From assembly GCA_019694655.1 (NCBI GenBank), contig JAIBBN010000002.1, positions 124,001 through 188,000 on the forward strand: a stretch of 64,000 bases of DNA, written 5' to 3'. Source of the stretch: Leptospirales bacterium (lineage in GTDB: Bacteria; Spirochaetota; Leptospiria; Leptospirales; Leptonemataceae). The position numbers were made by a program, and so were the translations under genes. The notes beneath the pieces are model-generated. The model was not told the DNA's origin and made no database searches. It was given only the letters and a program-made list of their open reading frames with translations. Shown here piece after piece: positions 30,256 through 35,296 of this stretch; position 1 is the first letter of the stretch; each line of letters opens with the position of its first letter.

Positions 30256-31062
30256 TCAGGCCGTGGCTTTGCTGAACAGCCGCAAAGCGAGCGATAGCAG
30301 CGCGAGGGTCGCGGCAATGCTTTCGGCCGGCGGCCAATCGATCATGTGCGAAACGAGCAATCCAAGGCTACAGGCAACAACGGCCAGCGCGGCGGAGAGC
30401 AGCAGCGTTGTGCGCAAAGCGGAGGCAAGTTTCCTCAGACCAAAGGCGGGCAAAGTCAGCAGGGCAAAGGAGGCAAGCGGCCCTGCGTAACGCGCGGCAA
30501 AGCCAAGCAACAGACCGCTGCCCAGCAGAAAAAGGATGCGCAGCAGTTCCGGATTCCTGCCCAGCGCCCGCAACTGCTGAGCGTCAAGGATCCACATCGA
30601 GAACAGGAAGCGCAGTCTGATAAGCAGGCTGAGACAGATCACGGAAACGAGCAGGGCAATGGCCGCCTCGGTCCAGCTGGCGCCAAAGAGTCCGCCGTTG
30701 AATGCGCTGCGCACTTCGGCCAATGCCAGGGGCGAGCTTGCCGCTGCCAGGACGGCGGTCGCGGCCGCCAGTACGTAGACCAGGCTGGCGCCGCCTTCGA
30801 CGCCGCGTGATAGGGTTCCAACAAGGACCAGTCCGATGCTGGCCCCGGCGGCGCCGCTCAATGCAAAAATCCAGGGGCTCTGCCCCTGATCGGCGCCGAA
30901 GCTCAGCGCAAGGGCCACTCCCAGGGCGCCGGAAGCGCTGCCGGCCAGTCCGGCATTGTTGTCGCCGCTGGCCGAAAGAAACACTCCGGCCATCGCCAGC
31001 GGCGGCGCCAGGGCCAGCAGCAGGCTCATCGATGCGCCAAACAGACTGAGGTATTCGATCAT
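30256..31062 (-). CDS. znuB: Zinc/manganese ABC transporter permease
   Basis: 268 residues, eight or so hydrophobic segments, ABC-3 family (ZnuB/TroC/MntB). The motif FALLTLPAFGLRKLASALRTTLLLSAALA is the family's characteristic cytoplasmic loop and flanking helices. It forms the inner-membrane channel for metal delivered by the ZnuA-like protein. The ATG overlaps the stop of the ATPase gene by 4 bp; it is the last gene of a four-gene operon. Confidence 0.85.
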   Translation of the reverse strand: MIEYLSLFGASMSLLLALAPPLAMAGVFLSASGDNNAGLAGSASGALGVALALSFGADQGQSPWIFALSGAAGASIGLVLVGTLSRGVEGGASLVYVLAAATAVLAAASSPLALAEVRSAFNGGLFGASWTEAAIALLVSVICLSLLIRLRFLFSMWILDAQQLRALGRNPELLRILFLLGSGLLLGFAARYAGPLASFALLTLPAFGLRKLASALRTTLLLSAALAVVACSLGLLVSHMIDWPPAESIAATLALLSLALRLFSKATA

Positions 31063-31691
31063 TGGCGCAGGCCTGTGGAGGAAACGGGGCGCAGAACAAT
31101 TTCGCCGCTGTGGCGGATTTCGGGCAGTGCTCCGTGCACGGCAGCCAGCACTCCGCCGCCGCTTTGCAAAATCGTTTGAATCAGGCGGTTGAAAACCGCC
31201 ATTCCCTGAGCATCCAAACCGGACTCCGGCTCATCGGCCAGCAGCAGGCGAGGTTGCAGGACGTGGGCGCGCGCAAACAGCAGGCGCTGCCACTGACCGC
31301 GAGAAAGTTGATGAATCGATGAGCGTTGTTGAAGTTGCAGTCCGGAAAATTCCAGGGCGCGATCAACAGAATCGGCCGGCGCTGCTCTGGCGCCGACGAG
31401 CCTGAGCGGCGAGGCGACAAATTCCCGTACCGATTGTGGCAGAGGCGGCGGCGCATTGGCAATTGCCAGGGCCAGCGGCGCCGCTTGCGGATGGAGCTTG
31501 AAGCTGCCAGCGTAGGCTGGAAATTCGCCCAGCAAGGTCGCCAGCAACGAGCTCTTGCCTGCGCCATTGGGTCCGCGCAATAAGAGAGCCTCGCCGCCGC
31601 TGATTCGAAAATCAATCGCTTCAAAGAGCGCCCGACCGCTGCGTCCGGCCTGCAGGGCCTTTGCTTCTAACAGTATGCATTCGTCAATCAC
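31059..31691 (-). CDS. znuC: Zinc/manganese ABC transporter ATP-binding protein
   Basis: 210 residues. Walker A LLRGPNGAGKSSLLATLLG, signature LSRGQWQRLLFAR, Walker B LLLADEPESGLDAQG, and switch His in LAAVHGALPEI. It is short for the family (about 250) and the Q-loop region is compact. Cytoplasmic ATPase partner of the adjacent permease; both ends overlap neighbouring genes (ATGA), indicating tight translational coupling. Confidence 0.88.
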   Translation of the reverse strand: MIDECILLEAKALQAGRSGRALFEAIDFRISGGEALLLRGPNGAGKSSLLATLLGEFPAYAGSFKLHPQAAPLALAIANAPPPLPQSVREFVASPLRLVGARAAPADSVDRALEFSGLQLQQRSSIHQLSRGQWQRLLFARAHVLQPRLLLADEPESGLDAQGMAVFNRLIQTILQSGGGVLAAVHGALPEIRHSGEIVLRPVSSTGLRQ

Positions 31692-32740
31692 TGTGAGGCC
31701 CCATCAAGCGTTTGCAGAAGCATTTGCGCATTGCACTGCAGCATCTGCAGATAGTCGCTGGCGCAGGGCAAGGCGCCAGTCTGATGAGCCAGGCGTAGTA
31801 TGTGTGCATCGGCGCTGGCTGCGATCCAATCAAGAGTTCGCTGCGAGTAAAAGGCTGTGGCAATGACGGTGTGCAGTCCGCGGCCCTGCATCGTCTCTTT
31901 GAGATATTCAAGGCGAGCGCTGGAAGGCGCGATTCCCGGTCGCTCCTCAATGCTGAGCGCAGCCTGGATTCCGTAGCTGTTTAACAGGTAGCTCCATTGA
32001 CCGGGATGATCGACTACCACAACGGCGTGCTTGCGCTGAAATTCGCCAAGCGCCCCGCCCAGGGCGCTGAGCTCATTCTGGTTTCGAAAGTAGGAAAGTA
32101 GCGCCGGCGATCCGCCGCGTTGCAACAGCCTGGCCAGTTGTTCCAGCCGTGCCTGGTATCGTTGAGCCAGGGTTTCGCCAATCAACCAGCGAAAGATTGC
32201 ACTGCTCAGATCCTGCCAGTTTGCCTGCAGTCGAGATGTCTGTTGCGGAGAAATTCGCTTCAGAAAGTCGCGCGCGCCGGCTGCAACCAGTACCCCGGCG
32301 GCCGGATCGACCAGAAAGTGCGGGCTTCCGCCGGGATGAAGGTCGCCGGCGCTGCGATCGGCGCCAGGCGGCGCCAGATCGCGAGGACTGATGTAATCGG
32401 ATGCTCGAAAAAAACCGGCCGCGCCCGGCAACAGCTGCGGATTTCGCGCTTGCTGCAGCGCCGCGGGCGCCCAGCCCACTTCCAGTTCCAGGCCAACTTC
32501 AGCAAAGACCTGGCAGCGGCTGAGAGCAAGCACTATGCCCGGACGGGCTTCGACAAAGTGCGGGTCTTCGTTGGGACGCACCAGCGAGTTTACACGGACG
32601 GCATCTCCGCCGACGGACTGAAAAATCGACGCCAGGTCCGGCGTGGCAGCGCAGACCTGGATCGGCCCGGCAGGCGCCGATCTCAGGCTACCCGCTGAAA
32701 AAAGCAAAAGGGCGAGGATGATGGATCTGCGATTCGTCAT
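31688..32740 (-). CDS. znuA: Zinc/manganese-binding periplasmic protein (ZnuA/TroA-like)
   Basis: 350 residues with a signal peptide (SIILALLLFSAGSLRSAPA). Metal-site motifs of the A-I cluster family: NEDPHFVEARPG (His), GDLHPGGSPHFLVDP (His), and VVVDHPGQWSYLLNSYGI (His). The long His-rich loop of E. coli ZnuA is absent. It captures Zn2+ or Mn2+ in the periplasm and hands it to the permease. It starts 9 bp after the outer-membrane protein gene. Confidence 0.85.
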   Translation of the reverse strand: MTNRRSIILALLLFSAGSLRSAPAGPIQVCAATPDLASIFQSVGGDAVRVNSLVRPNEDPHFVEARPGIVLALSRCQVFAEVGLELEVGWAPAALQQARNPQLLPGAAGFFRASDYISPRDLAPPGADRSAGDLHPGGSPHFLVDPAAGVLVAAGARDFLKRISPQQTSRLQANWQDLSSAIFRWLIGETLAQRYQARLEQLARLLQRGGSPALLSYFRNQNELSALGGALGEFQRKHAVVVVDHPGQWSYLLNSYGIQAALSIEERPGIAPSSARLEYLKETMQGRGLHTVIATAFYSQRTLDWIAASADAHILRLAHQTGALPCASDYLQMLQCNAQMLLQTLDGASQ

Positions 32741-32749
32741 GGTTCTGCC

Positions 32750-34360
32750 TCAAAATGCATGCGCCGGATGCGCGCCGATCAGGAATTCGACGCCAACAAA
32801 CACGCTCCAGCTACGTCGCGCGCGCTCTTGCAGAACAAACTGCAGCGGAACGGCCGGAAGGGTCGGATCGATCTCATTGGCCTGCACGATCAGGATTTTG
32901 CGCTCGCGCAGGTGGTCGGCGCGCTCCTCGTTGTATTGCAGGCGAAAACGGGAAAACTCGGAGGGCTGATAGACCAGCAGCGGGCTGATTCGAACGCGGG
33001 TATCGCGAGCCGGATCCCGGTCGCGACCCTGAAGATCCTTGCTGCCCAGCCAGGGGCCGCCGTCGACCCGGCTTTCGCCGCTGCCGGAGGCAAATTCATA
33101 GCGAAGCCCGGCGGACCATCCGGTCAGAAAACCCAACAAGATCTGCGAATAGTAGCCATAGTCATGCAAGGTCTCTGTTCGATGCACGCTGCGAATGGCG
33201 GCCTCGATCACGCCTTGTTGCTCGACGCTGCTCAACGCAGCAAAATCGCTCGCCCCGCGCAAAACATCGATCAGCAAACCCAGGTCGCCGCGATCTGGAG
33301 ATAATAAAGTTGTATCAAGTAAGTCCTGTAGCGTCTGCGAGTCAAAGTATTCTGCGGAAGAGTATGTCGCTGGATAGCGAGACTTCAACAGCGACCAGGC
33401 GCCCTCTAAAGCGCCGGCGCCAACAGCCTTGTCGACGATATAGTCGCGACGGAATGCCTCGCTCTGCCAGACAAAGTAGGGAAATCCGCGTTCTGCGCCA
33501 GGCGGATTCCACTTTATAAGAAGGTCAATGCCATAGATGCCGGTTTTTCCCCGGGGACCGGTGGCGTTGGGACCGACGGCAGCGTTCAAACCGAGACGTG
33601 CGTTCCAGTTATCGGCAATTTCGGCGCTGTTCGTCAGTCGAATTGCGGTCGCCCGTCGATCGCCGCGTGCATACGGGTCAGAAACTGCAGCGTAGCCGCC
33701 AATGGTCGCCGGCTCGCCGCCTGCGGGATCGGCAAGGAAGCTGATCATGTTTTCGCCATCGGCGTTTTGTGCGGACAGACTGAGTTCTGCCAGCCAGGGC
33801 AGAGGCGCCAGCCAGGCAAGGCGCAGGCCTTCGCCGCGCATGGCATCGCCGCCAAACAATCTGCTCAGAATGACCGGTTGATCCAGCCAGGCCCAGGCGT
33901 GTGGGTGTGTGGAATTCAAAATGCCAATCTCCGTGTTGAAACGGCCGGCCTTGAGTTCCAGGCCCCAGGGCAACGAACTGGAGCGAGCATAAGCCTCTTC
34001 GAGTTCAGCGCCCTCTGCAAAATTGACATTCATTTGCAGCTGAAAGTAGGGATCCACGGCGCCGCCCATGGCCAGCTCAGCGCCGTTCAGCGAAAAGCCG
34101 CTGCGACCGGGATCATGATGTCCGGCCTGCAGCGCGGAGAGGACGGAGGGCCGCGCCGGAGAATAGCCCCAGGCTGCATCGGCCACAAAGGAAAGGTCCG
34201 TCAATCGCAAGAGGCCAGATGCTGCGGGCGCCGCGCCTTCTGCCGGTGCGGCGGGGCTTTGAAGATCGCGGAGGGCCTGATCCAGTGCGTCCGCCGGCTG
34301 CGCCGCAAGGCCCAGGGGCAAGAGTGCAAGCGGCAGGCGCCACAGCCAGCGGCCAATCAT
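32750..34360 (-). CDS. Predicted outer-membrane beta-barrel protein leading the metal-transport operon
   Basis: About 536 residues from the ATG at 34360, which sits right before a signal peptide (MIGRWLWRLPLALLPLGLAAQPADA). The mature protein is rich in alternating amphipathic strands (for example YFQLQMNVNFAEGAELEEAYA, GLELKAGRFNTEIG, RFRLQYNEERAD), with a zinc-regulated TonB-independent 'DUF-type' porin appearance and a C-terminal region ending VFVGVEFLIGAHPAHAF. ELKAGRFNTEIGILNSTHPHAWAW resembles porins that sit in metal-limited operons. No TonB box seen. I infer a metal-uptake or metal-sensing outer-membrane channel. Confidence 0.68.
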   Translation of the reverse strand: MIGRWLWRLPLALLPLGLAAQPADALDQALRDLQSPAAPAEGAAPAASGLLRLTDLSFVADAAWGYSPARPSVLSALQAGHHDPGRSGFSLNGAELAMGGAVDPYFQLQMNVNFAEGAELEEAYARSSSLPWGLELKAGRFNTEIGILNSTHPHAWAWLDQPVILSRLFGGDAMRGEGLRLAWLAPLPWLAELSLSAQNADGENMISFLADPAGGEPATIGGYAAVSDPYARGDRRATAIRLTNSAEIADNWNARLGLNAAVGPNATGPRGKTGIYGIDLLIKWNPPGAERGFPYFVWQSEAFRRDYIVDKAVGAGALEGAWSLLKSRYPATYSSAEYFDSQTLQDLLDTTLLSPDRGDLGLLIDVLRGASDFAALSSVEQQGVIEAAIRSVHRTETLHDYGYYSQILLGFLTGWSAGLRYEFASGSGESRVDGGPWLGSKDLQGRDRDPARDTRVRISPLLVYQPSEFSRFRLQYNEERADHLRERKILIVQANEIDPTLPAVPLQFVLQERARRSWSVFVGVEFLIGAHPAHAF

Positions 34361-34387
34361 GAAACCGATATTTTGTAGATCCTCAAT

Positions 34388-34409
34388 CACGTATATACGA
34401 AATTTCGTG
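34388..34409. promoter_or_regulatory. Overlapping palindromes upstream of the metal-transport operon
   Basis: Two perfect palindromes share three bases: CGTATATACG (34390-34399) and ACGAAATTTCGT (34397-34408); the 22-bp block begins CACG and ends CGTG. It lies 28 bp upstream of the first gene of the operon (start 34360), in the divergent region shared with the decarboxylase-like gene. This is the position and form of an operator for a dimeric metalloregulator (Zur/Fur or ArsR type). The regulator is not encoded in the window. Confidence 0.55.
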
Positions 34410-34462: not shown

Positions 34463-35296
34463 TTGGCCGGCGAACGGCCCGAGCGGCGGCAGCATCGCCG
34501 CCTAAAAAGTCTTGCCCAGGCTGCTTGCCCGGCATATCTGCTACGGGGGAGAAAGACTCTGGCTACATCAGCGAAGAAACAGAAGAAAAGTGCAGCAAAG
34601 GCTTCTCAGGCGGTCCGCCGGCGAGCAAGTTCGTCGACGATAGCGCCTGGGCCAAAGTTTCCGCCGCCGTGGGAATTACAGGGCGAAGGATACATCTTTC
34701 CTTTTCGCGCCAACGTTCCATACAACCTGGAGCACGGATTTCTAAGCGAGCCGGAGCGGGCCAGCTACCGCGGCGGTCTGGGCGCGATGATGCTTGTGAA
34801 CTATCATCAGGCAAATTGTGGTCCCTACCAGGAGCTGCTGTATATTCCCGGAAGCTTCAGTTACAGCGGAGGAAACTGCAAAAGGATCACCAGGATTTTC
34901 GTTTCCAGCGCCGCTTCCGTGGAGTGGGGAATGAGAAACTGGGCCATACCCAAGGATCTGGCGGAGTTTGAATGGCAAAAGGGCGAGCGATCGACTTTTG
35001 TGGAAGTGCGGCAGGGACGCAATGTCTTTCTGCGGGCGCGAATGGAGCGCGGTCTGCTGCCCTTTCCGGTAAGCTCCGCATTCTTTCCCTTTGCCCTGGT
35101 GCAGCGCGGTCCAGAGGCCTTGCTCAGAACCCGACTGCGCGGTCGGGGTACGGGACGCCGCATTCGACTTACAGAATTCTTTATAAATGAAAAGTATTTT
35201 CCGGATATGATGGAATCTGGCGGCGGCCGCTTTGGGATTGCTGTCGATCCATTTCGATTGGTCTTTCCCGCGGCGGAAGTTGTACCATTGGCATGA
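34463..35296 (+). CDS. Acetoacetate decarboxylase-fold protein
   Basis: 277 residues if translation begins at the TTG at 34463. The core (from about residue 66) matches the ADC fold: FPPPWELQGEGYIFPF, then VNYHQANCGPYQELLYIPG, then VEWGMRNWAIPKDLAEFEW, where the Lys sits where ADC has its Schiff-base lysine. The first 65 residues are a basic, low-complexity stretch. No ATG exists before the core; another possibility is a CTG at 34559 placed 7 nt after a strong GGGGGA ribosome-binding site. Substrate unknown. Confidence 0.7.
   Translation: MAGERPERRQHRRLKSLAQAACPAYLLRGRKTLATSAKKQKKSAAKASQAVRRRASSSTIAPGPKFPPPWELQGEGYIFPFRANVPYNLEHGFLSEPERASYRGGLGAMMLVNYHQANCGPYQELLYIPGSFSYSGGNCKRITRIFVSSAASVEWGMRNWAIPKDLAEFEWQKGERSTFVEVRQGRNVFLRARMERGLLPFPVSSAFFPFALVQRGPEALLRTRLRGRGTGRRIRLTEFFINEKYFPDMMESGGGRFGIAVDPFRLVFPAAEVVPLA

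Follow-up and report, generated by a model that had tools for sequence, protein, structure and literature searches.

The window analysed here, a stretch of 64,000 nucleotides from a Leptospirales bacterium, carries between positions 30,256 and 34,409 four genes that together read as a zinc-import operon, repressed by the regulator Zur and led by an outer-membrane protein (OMP) that would act as a metal porin feeding a ZnuABC importer; a probability of about 70% is given to this reading. The OMP itself is most likely a metal-selective porin supplying ZnuABC, and the operon is probably under the control of Zur, and for zinc, with Zur binding predicted at a short element upstream of the first gene. 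The parts of the system are located as follows.

34390 to 34399, no strand: palindrome CGTATATACG, read directly; not exactly kept in relatives.
34397 to 34408, no strand: palindrome ACGAAATTTCGT, read directly; not exactly kept in relatives.
34391 to 34406, minus strand: conserved 16-bp operator core GAAATTTCGTATATAC, a candidate Zur site, with exact GAAANTTCGTATNTAC matches in relatives and a copy at the bacterium's own zur.
32750 to 34360, minus strand: porin-type OMP, 536 amino acids, from AlphaFold2 models, OprP fold matches and histidine conservation.
31688 to 32740, minus strand: ZnuA-type periplasmic metal-binding protein, 350 amino acids; Pfam PF01297 at 99.7 bits (cut-off 29).
31059 to 31691, minus strand: ZnuC-type ATPase, 210 amino acids, GTG start; Pfam PF00005 at 69.5 bits (cut-off 25).
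30256 to 31062, minus strand: ZnuB-type permease, 268 amino acids; Pfam PF00950 at 34.3 bits (cut-off 20.1) and PF01032 at 35.0 bits (cut-off 26.5).

An earlier note on this DNA had read the genes in the order OMP, ZnuA, ZnuC and ZnuB, as a single unit for metal import over both membranes. The order is borne out, with all four genes lying between 34360 and 30256 of the minus strand, and the single unit is supported; of the ATGA overlaps that were described, the one between ZnuC and ZnuB stands (4 bases), whereas ZnuA and ZnuC overlap by GTGA (also 4 bases) and the OMP and ZnuA genes are separated by a 9 bp gap. The start assigned to the OMP at 34360 is an inner ATG with a signal-peptide-like beginning, the mechanically called open reading frame (ORF) opening at 34495. 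The binding protein, the ATPase and the ABC-3 permease all exceed the curated Pfam cut-offs and thus form a metal ABC importer of the ZnuABC type, and the top two matches of ZnuA among solved structures are zinc-uptake proteins. The equivalog cut-offs of NCBIfam for AztABC are not reached (AztC 58.8 of 350 bits, AztA 91.3 of 220, AztB 25.5 of 280), nor is that of PRK09543 (ZnuB); the best NCBIfam model for ZnuA is AztC, below its cut-off.

At E ≤ 1, neither Pfam nor NCBIfam has a family that matches the OMP, and solved structures give no match by sequence at E ≤ 10. Two AlphaFold2 models, made with 16 and 57 sequences (confidence score pLDDT 70.9 and 79.4, respectively), both contain 16 strands, and the top Foldseek match is the porin OprP (3.4e-12). 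Superposition with VIA-align gives OprP at Z 28.1 and a root-mean-square deviation (rmsd) of 3.0 over 311 residues for the first model, and at Z 27.8 and rmsd 3.3 over 317 residues for the second; OprO, DcaP, OmpF and others follow at Z 22–28, which places the models in the 16-strand porin fold. The barrel of a TonB-dependent receptor has 22 strands, and neither the plug (PF07715) nor the receptor barrel (PF00593) of Pfam matches the OMP at E ≤ 1. The suggestion of a porin-type barrel in place of a ZnuD-like TonB receptor is accordingly upheld, and the proposed check by structure prediction favours an outer-membrane barrel in both models. The Pfam family BBP2 (PF07642, cut-off 26.2) does not match the window's protein either, and two homologues (L034 and L075) stay below its cut-off with 21.2 and 14.9 bits. 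In the model, residues ~311–394 insert four helices between strands 11 and 12, a feature of the window's close clade that is mostly missing in distant OMPs.

Histidines set this protein family apart at two places. In an alignment of the window's protein with 56 of 89 loci (35 plus 54, partly the same records, with duplicates, cut sequences and some others omitted), H152, H531 and H534 are invariant in 57 of 57 sequences, and H154 is kept in 56 of 57. The first pair, H152 and H154, falls in the 32 residues linking strands 5 and 6, a segment modelled at pLDDT ~90 that by position we take to correspond to the pore-narrowing loop L3 of porins. H531 and H534 make up a C-terminal HPxH motif (HPAHAF in the window) behind the last strand, at the low-confidence end of the model. 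The four histidines may line the pore or its rim.

The gene for the OMP is tied to that for ZnuA over a wide range of bacteria. Of 30 genomes of the order, the bacterium's own among them, 20 gave the OMP in a protein search; at phylum level, a profile search detected it in 46 of 296 genomes. Scanning GTDB contigs with a pattern yielded 54 named loci, with Leptospiraceae, Bdellovibrionales, Oligoflexia, Rokuibacteriota, Acidobacteria, Phycisphaerales and Manganitrophus among the record titles. ZnuA lies next downstream, on the same strand and within 300 bp, in 48 of these 54 loci; it is absent in two (L101 and L127), and four end at a contig edge. Similarly, ZnuA follows the OMP in 31 of 35 loci of a second set, some of them the same records, with L031, L039, L081 (ZnuACB divergent) and L076 (contig end) as exceptions. 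One Vibrio campbellii record (NZ_CP050465, 2.06 Mb, labelled plasmid) carries an OMP–ZnuA–ZnuB trio at L233:4923-7779, with ZnuA recognised by Pfam and an OMP that ends in GAHGAHAF; this is the one plasmid record with the OMP, and its gene table has 2 features, so missing annotation there is uninformative.

A lipoprotein gene lies within 700 bp of the OMP in 40 of the 54 named loci and in 20 of the 35 others, as judged with a loose profile. The small lipoprotein carries two histidines, HxxxxxH, that are invariant in an alignment of 18, and three members tested have no Pfam family above cut-off; examples are found at L029:8426-9076, L033:7928-8692 and L034:5064-5801, and the gene is divergent in the relatives G017, G018 and G019. 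Ahead of the OMP in the window there is no lipoprotein gene, the upstream gene there being ADC-like (below cut-off) and on the opposite strand, and the bacterium's own genome has only an N-terminal match of 49 positions, beside zur (C8:17510-17665). Lipoprotein–OMP pairs without ZnuA occur at L127:4678-6990, which begins with a histidine-rich, secreted-looking protein, and at L039:4609-7148; in the relative G001, a histidine-rich protein of ~181 amino acids with no family above cut-off stands ahead of the OMP (L030:5660-6208). Rfam gives no match between 29000 and 36000 of the window.

Upstream of the OMP, two overlapping palindromes had been described as a 22-bp block 28 bp before the first start. 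Both are present and have three bases (ACG) in common, giving a block of 19 bp (10 + 12 − 3) that lies 29 bp before the ATG. Perfect palindromes of at least 10 bp number 108 in the window against a mean of 103.5 in 60 dinucleotide shuffles, and overlapping pairs of such size number one against a mean of 3.2 per shuffle, shuffle counts that may take in simple repeats along with other pairs; since 45 of the 60 shuffles hold at least one pair, the overlap alone is no more than chance and was rejected as stand-alone evidence. Because the exact palindromes are not kept in relatives, the conserved unit is a 16-bp core with a partial dyad around a central CG. This core, GAAAnTTCGTATnTAC, occurs exactly at four places in seven genomes (the bacterium's own and six relatives), each time preceding an OMP operon, against 0.05–0.22 matches expected. 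Exact GAAANTTCGTATNTAC has one match each in the own genome, G017, G018 and G019, and none in G001, G016 and G020; an OMP was likewise not detected in G016 and G020, and G001 has an OMP and no close zur orthologue (best 35% over part). The cores ahead of the orthologous OMP are GAAAATTCGTATTTAC (G017), GAAATTTCGTATTTAC (G018) and GAAAGTTCGTATTTAC (G019), which agree with the window at 14–15 of 16 bases, compared with 7–11 of 30 on either flank. Four relatives (L189:4495-4510, L190:4352-4367, L191:2573-2588 and L192:4489-4504) keep GTAAATTCTTATTTAC, which has perfect 6-bp arms, at a matching position between divergent genes, with no metal gene recognised nearby.

The core is linked to a second zinc-type operon of the same bacterium. 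Among four FUR-family genes in its genome, one on contig C8 heads a set of its own with ZnuA (163 bits), an ATPase and an ABC-3 permease (245 bits). This gene, here called zur, starts with GTG, and 30 bp ahead of that codon stands GAATTTTCGGATTTAC, a copy of the core with two mismatches. With a matrix drawn from the four OMP sites only, none of 1000 column-permuted matrices scores as high in the 230 bp before the GTG, against 631, 799 and 575 of 1000 for the other three FUR-family genes; the score of 18.6 is reached by one of 587 tiles, which include loci fetched because they held matches. The block, for which the earlier note proposed a search ahead of other metal genes, is, in its 19-bp form, unique in the genome at up to three mismatches, and it is the core that recurs before zur-znuACB.

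Gene context points to the same regulator. Orthologues of the C8 gene with at least 42% identity were found in 10 of 19 genomes searched, and in seven of the ten (G017–G019, G007, G009, G020 and G005) a neighbour belongs to the ZnuA, ABC-3 permease or ZrgA family; in G017–G020, zur stands behind a permease. In G017, G018 and G019 the orthologue (44–46% identity) closes the OMP operon itself, after ZnuB, so that Zur control is indicated both by linkage in these operons and by the element at the own zur. In G005 (L204:1495-2663), zur is divergent from a ZrgA zinc-uptake gene (PF10986), and a related element, GAAAATACTTATTTAC, lies between them (1 of 500). The choice of Fur, Zur or ArsR offered by the earlier note can therefore be narrowed to Zur as the likely one, from the zur linkage and the shared element. 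The closest orthologue (63%), at L196 (G009:C13:360053-360457), has one TGA within the match.

Several observations weigh against this reading, and they are taken here together with the alternatives on which they bear. The first alternative, an unlikely one, accepts the Zur-controlled zinc operon and makes the OMP an unselective general porin, co-expressed only to raise permeability. The fold closely resembles both general and specific porins, and the porin MspD, induced by zinc starvation in mycobacteria, is termed accessory (PMC13098993); histidines invariant in 57 sequences from several phyla, and a pairing with ZnuA this tight, nevertheless exceed the needs of a general pore. To any passive pore under Zur it may also be objected that very scarce zinc is said, in passages of PMC10393844, to need active, TonB-driven uptake.

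Slightly less credible is an operon for manganese, iron, nickel or cobalt in place of zinc, with the FUR protein a regulator of the Mur, Fur or PerR type. The C8 protein stays under every NCBIfam cut-off, and the Fur (84.5 of 220 bits) and PerR (83.7 of 180) models outscore the Zur model NF008646 (46 of 167); these models do not settle the matter, and its identity as Zur rests on gene context. The weak NCBIfam matches of the window's ZnuA include manganese proteins. A paralogous OMP in G001 (L031:5136-8437) belongs to a lipoprotein–OMP–SCO1 (PF02630)–PCuAC (PF04314) cluster, SCO1 and PCuAC being copper proteins; this is likely a copper version of the porin and suggests a metal-porin family that uses more than one metal, so zinc is not to be over-read from the porin alone. 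On the other side stand the ZnuA, ABC-3 or ZrgA neighbours of seven in ten close FUR orthologues and the two zinc-uptake structures matched best by ZnuA, even though the ZnuA and ABC-3 families are compatible with manganese.

Equally doubtful is the view that explains the palindromes by chance, or as a promoter or other-factor site, with no part for Zur. Besides the frequency of overlapping palindromes in shuffles, it draws on the fact that only five of 36 other regions (mostly more distant OMP operons, with operon starts estimated) reach 6/500 or better, one of the five being the G005 zur region; 0.4 would be expected, and in the remaining 31 the element is unrecognisable. The three relatives with exact cores belong to one genus and mutually share 23–26 bases of the 30-base left flank. 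Matches with two mismatches are near background genome-wide (12 in the own genome at up to two mismatches against 8 in a reversed control), so that the zur site rests on its position. Of the other ten such matches, beyond those in the window and at zur, nine overlap a mechanically picked ORF and one is intergenic (C12:4380), none at a gene recognised as zinc uptake; one-mismatch copies in G016, G017 and G018 were dropped as sites, lying inside one conserved long gene (10 relative regions examined). Were an in-frame ATG lying 57 bases further upstream the true start of zur, the site would fall within the gene; a search for a sigma-70 consensus promoter gave none at the element, and the regions upstream of other zur orthologues are mostly negative (G004 569, G006 419, G009 110, G011 98 and G007 21 of 1000, the last being the only near signal among these five). 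Against a chance pattern, however, stand the four exact matches in seven genomes, all at the OMP operon, the retention of the core and not the flanks in the window, and the independent copy at the own zur. For the refuting condition named in the earlier note, absence of the palindrome from orthologous operons, the outcome is mixed: the palindromes as first described are not preserved there; the 16-bp core is, in G017, G018 and G019.

A ZnuD-like, TonB-dependent zinc receptor is very improbable: Zur-controlled TonB receptors have a precedent in passages of PMC6103462, and the own genome has genes for TonB_C (4 matches, of which 3 exceed the cut-off) and for Plug (6), which make a separate zinc receptor conceivable, but the OMP lacks a plug or receptor match and both its models are 16-stranded and porin-like.

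Under the preferred reading, a Zur-repressed operon with a metal porin at its head, zinc-loaded Zur would repress the operon, and when zinc is scarce Zur would leave the element at 34391–34406 and the four genes would be made together. The 16-strand porin would admit Zn2+ through the outer membrane by facilitated diffusion, selection for the metal may come from H152 and H154 in the constriction-type loop, and its onward transfer from the C-terminal HPxH motif, which would sit at the periplasmic rim if arranged as in porins. ZnuA would then capture zinc for ZnuBC to pump into the cell.

Each part of this system is of a known kind. ZnuABC and AztABC under Zur are alike in the families of substrate protein, ATPase and permease, in the A–C–B order and, in three relatives, in the FUR-family gene within the operon; the window's operon differs in being led by an outer-membrane porin and in leaving the AztA, AztB, AztC and PRK09543 cut-offs unreached. 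The phosphate porins OprP and OprO have the 16-strand fold (Z 27.3–28.1 over 309–319 residues), but the OMP is 13–16% identical to them in sequence, has no Pfam match and carries an invariant histidine in the strand 5–6 loop. MspD of Mycobacterium smegmatis is an MspA-like mycobacterial porin, of a fold family other than that of the OMP. MspD is induced by zur deletion as well as by zinc starvation (PMC13098993). For OprP, an arginine ladder is named in the title of the structure entry.

Regulated metal porins exist, as MspD (PMC13098993) and MnoP (PMC9334652) illustrate. MnoP of Bradyrhizobium imports manganese in proteoliposomes, and the OMP would resemble it, by description only, as an outer-membrane metal channel needed when the metal is scarce; the metal of MnoP is different, and no ABC operon is mentioned in the passages concerned (PMC9334652). 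OprD, named as a porin in the legend of a Zur-regulon table, is likewise similar by description only, as a porin among Zur-regulon genes (PMC6103462). ZnuD receptors share the role proposed here for the OMP, bringing zinc over the outer membrane under Zur control (PMC2895646, PMC6103462), whereas the OMP has no plug match and 16 strands. Such a porin is unmentioned in passages on FUR-family genes of Leptospira interrogans (PMC8638967) and in passages on delta-proteobacterial zur-znuABC, which has other Zur motifs (PMC545781). Among the open PMC papers listed, judged by titles and abstract beginnings, none describes this porin family or the combination of a histidine-bearing porin, its pairing with ZnuA over phyla and a Zur-linked element.

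Passage of zinc through the outer membrane under scarcity has so far been explained mainly by TonB receptors, in passages of PMC6103462 and PMC10393844. A broader proposal, offered tentatively and at somewhat less than even odds, is that histidine-bearing metal porins, absent from Pfam and NCBIfam, present in several phyla and with ZnuA as fixed partner (often together with the HxxxxxH lipoprotein), provide selective, TonB-free entry of zinc, with a copper version beside SCO1 and PCuAC, and that zinc would be passed on from the HPxH motif to either ZnuA or the lipoprotein. The side-by-side presence of porin and zinc importer in distant bacteria suggests such an overlooked route. If this is true, porins with fixed histidines, coupled to ZnuA in several phyla and apparently controlled by Zur, would offer zinc a second route beside TonB receptors, and metal selectivity in porins would become directly testable; for this order of spirochaetes, the 16-bp core is a starting motif for Zur sites.

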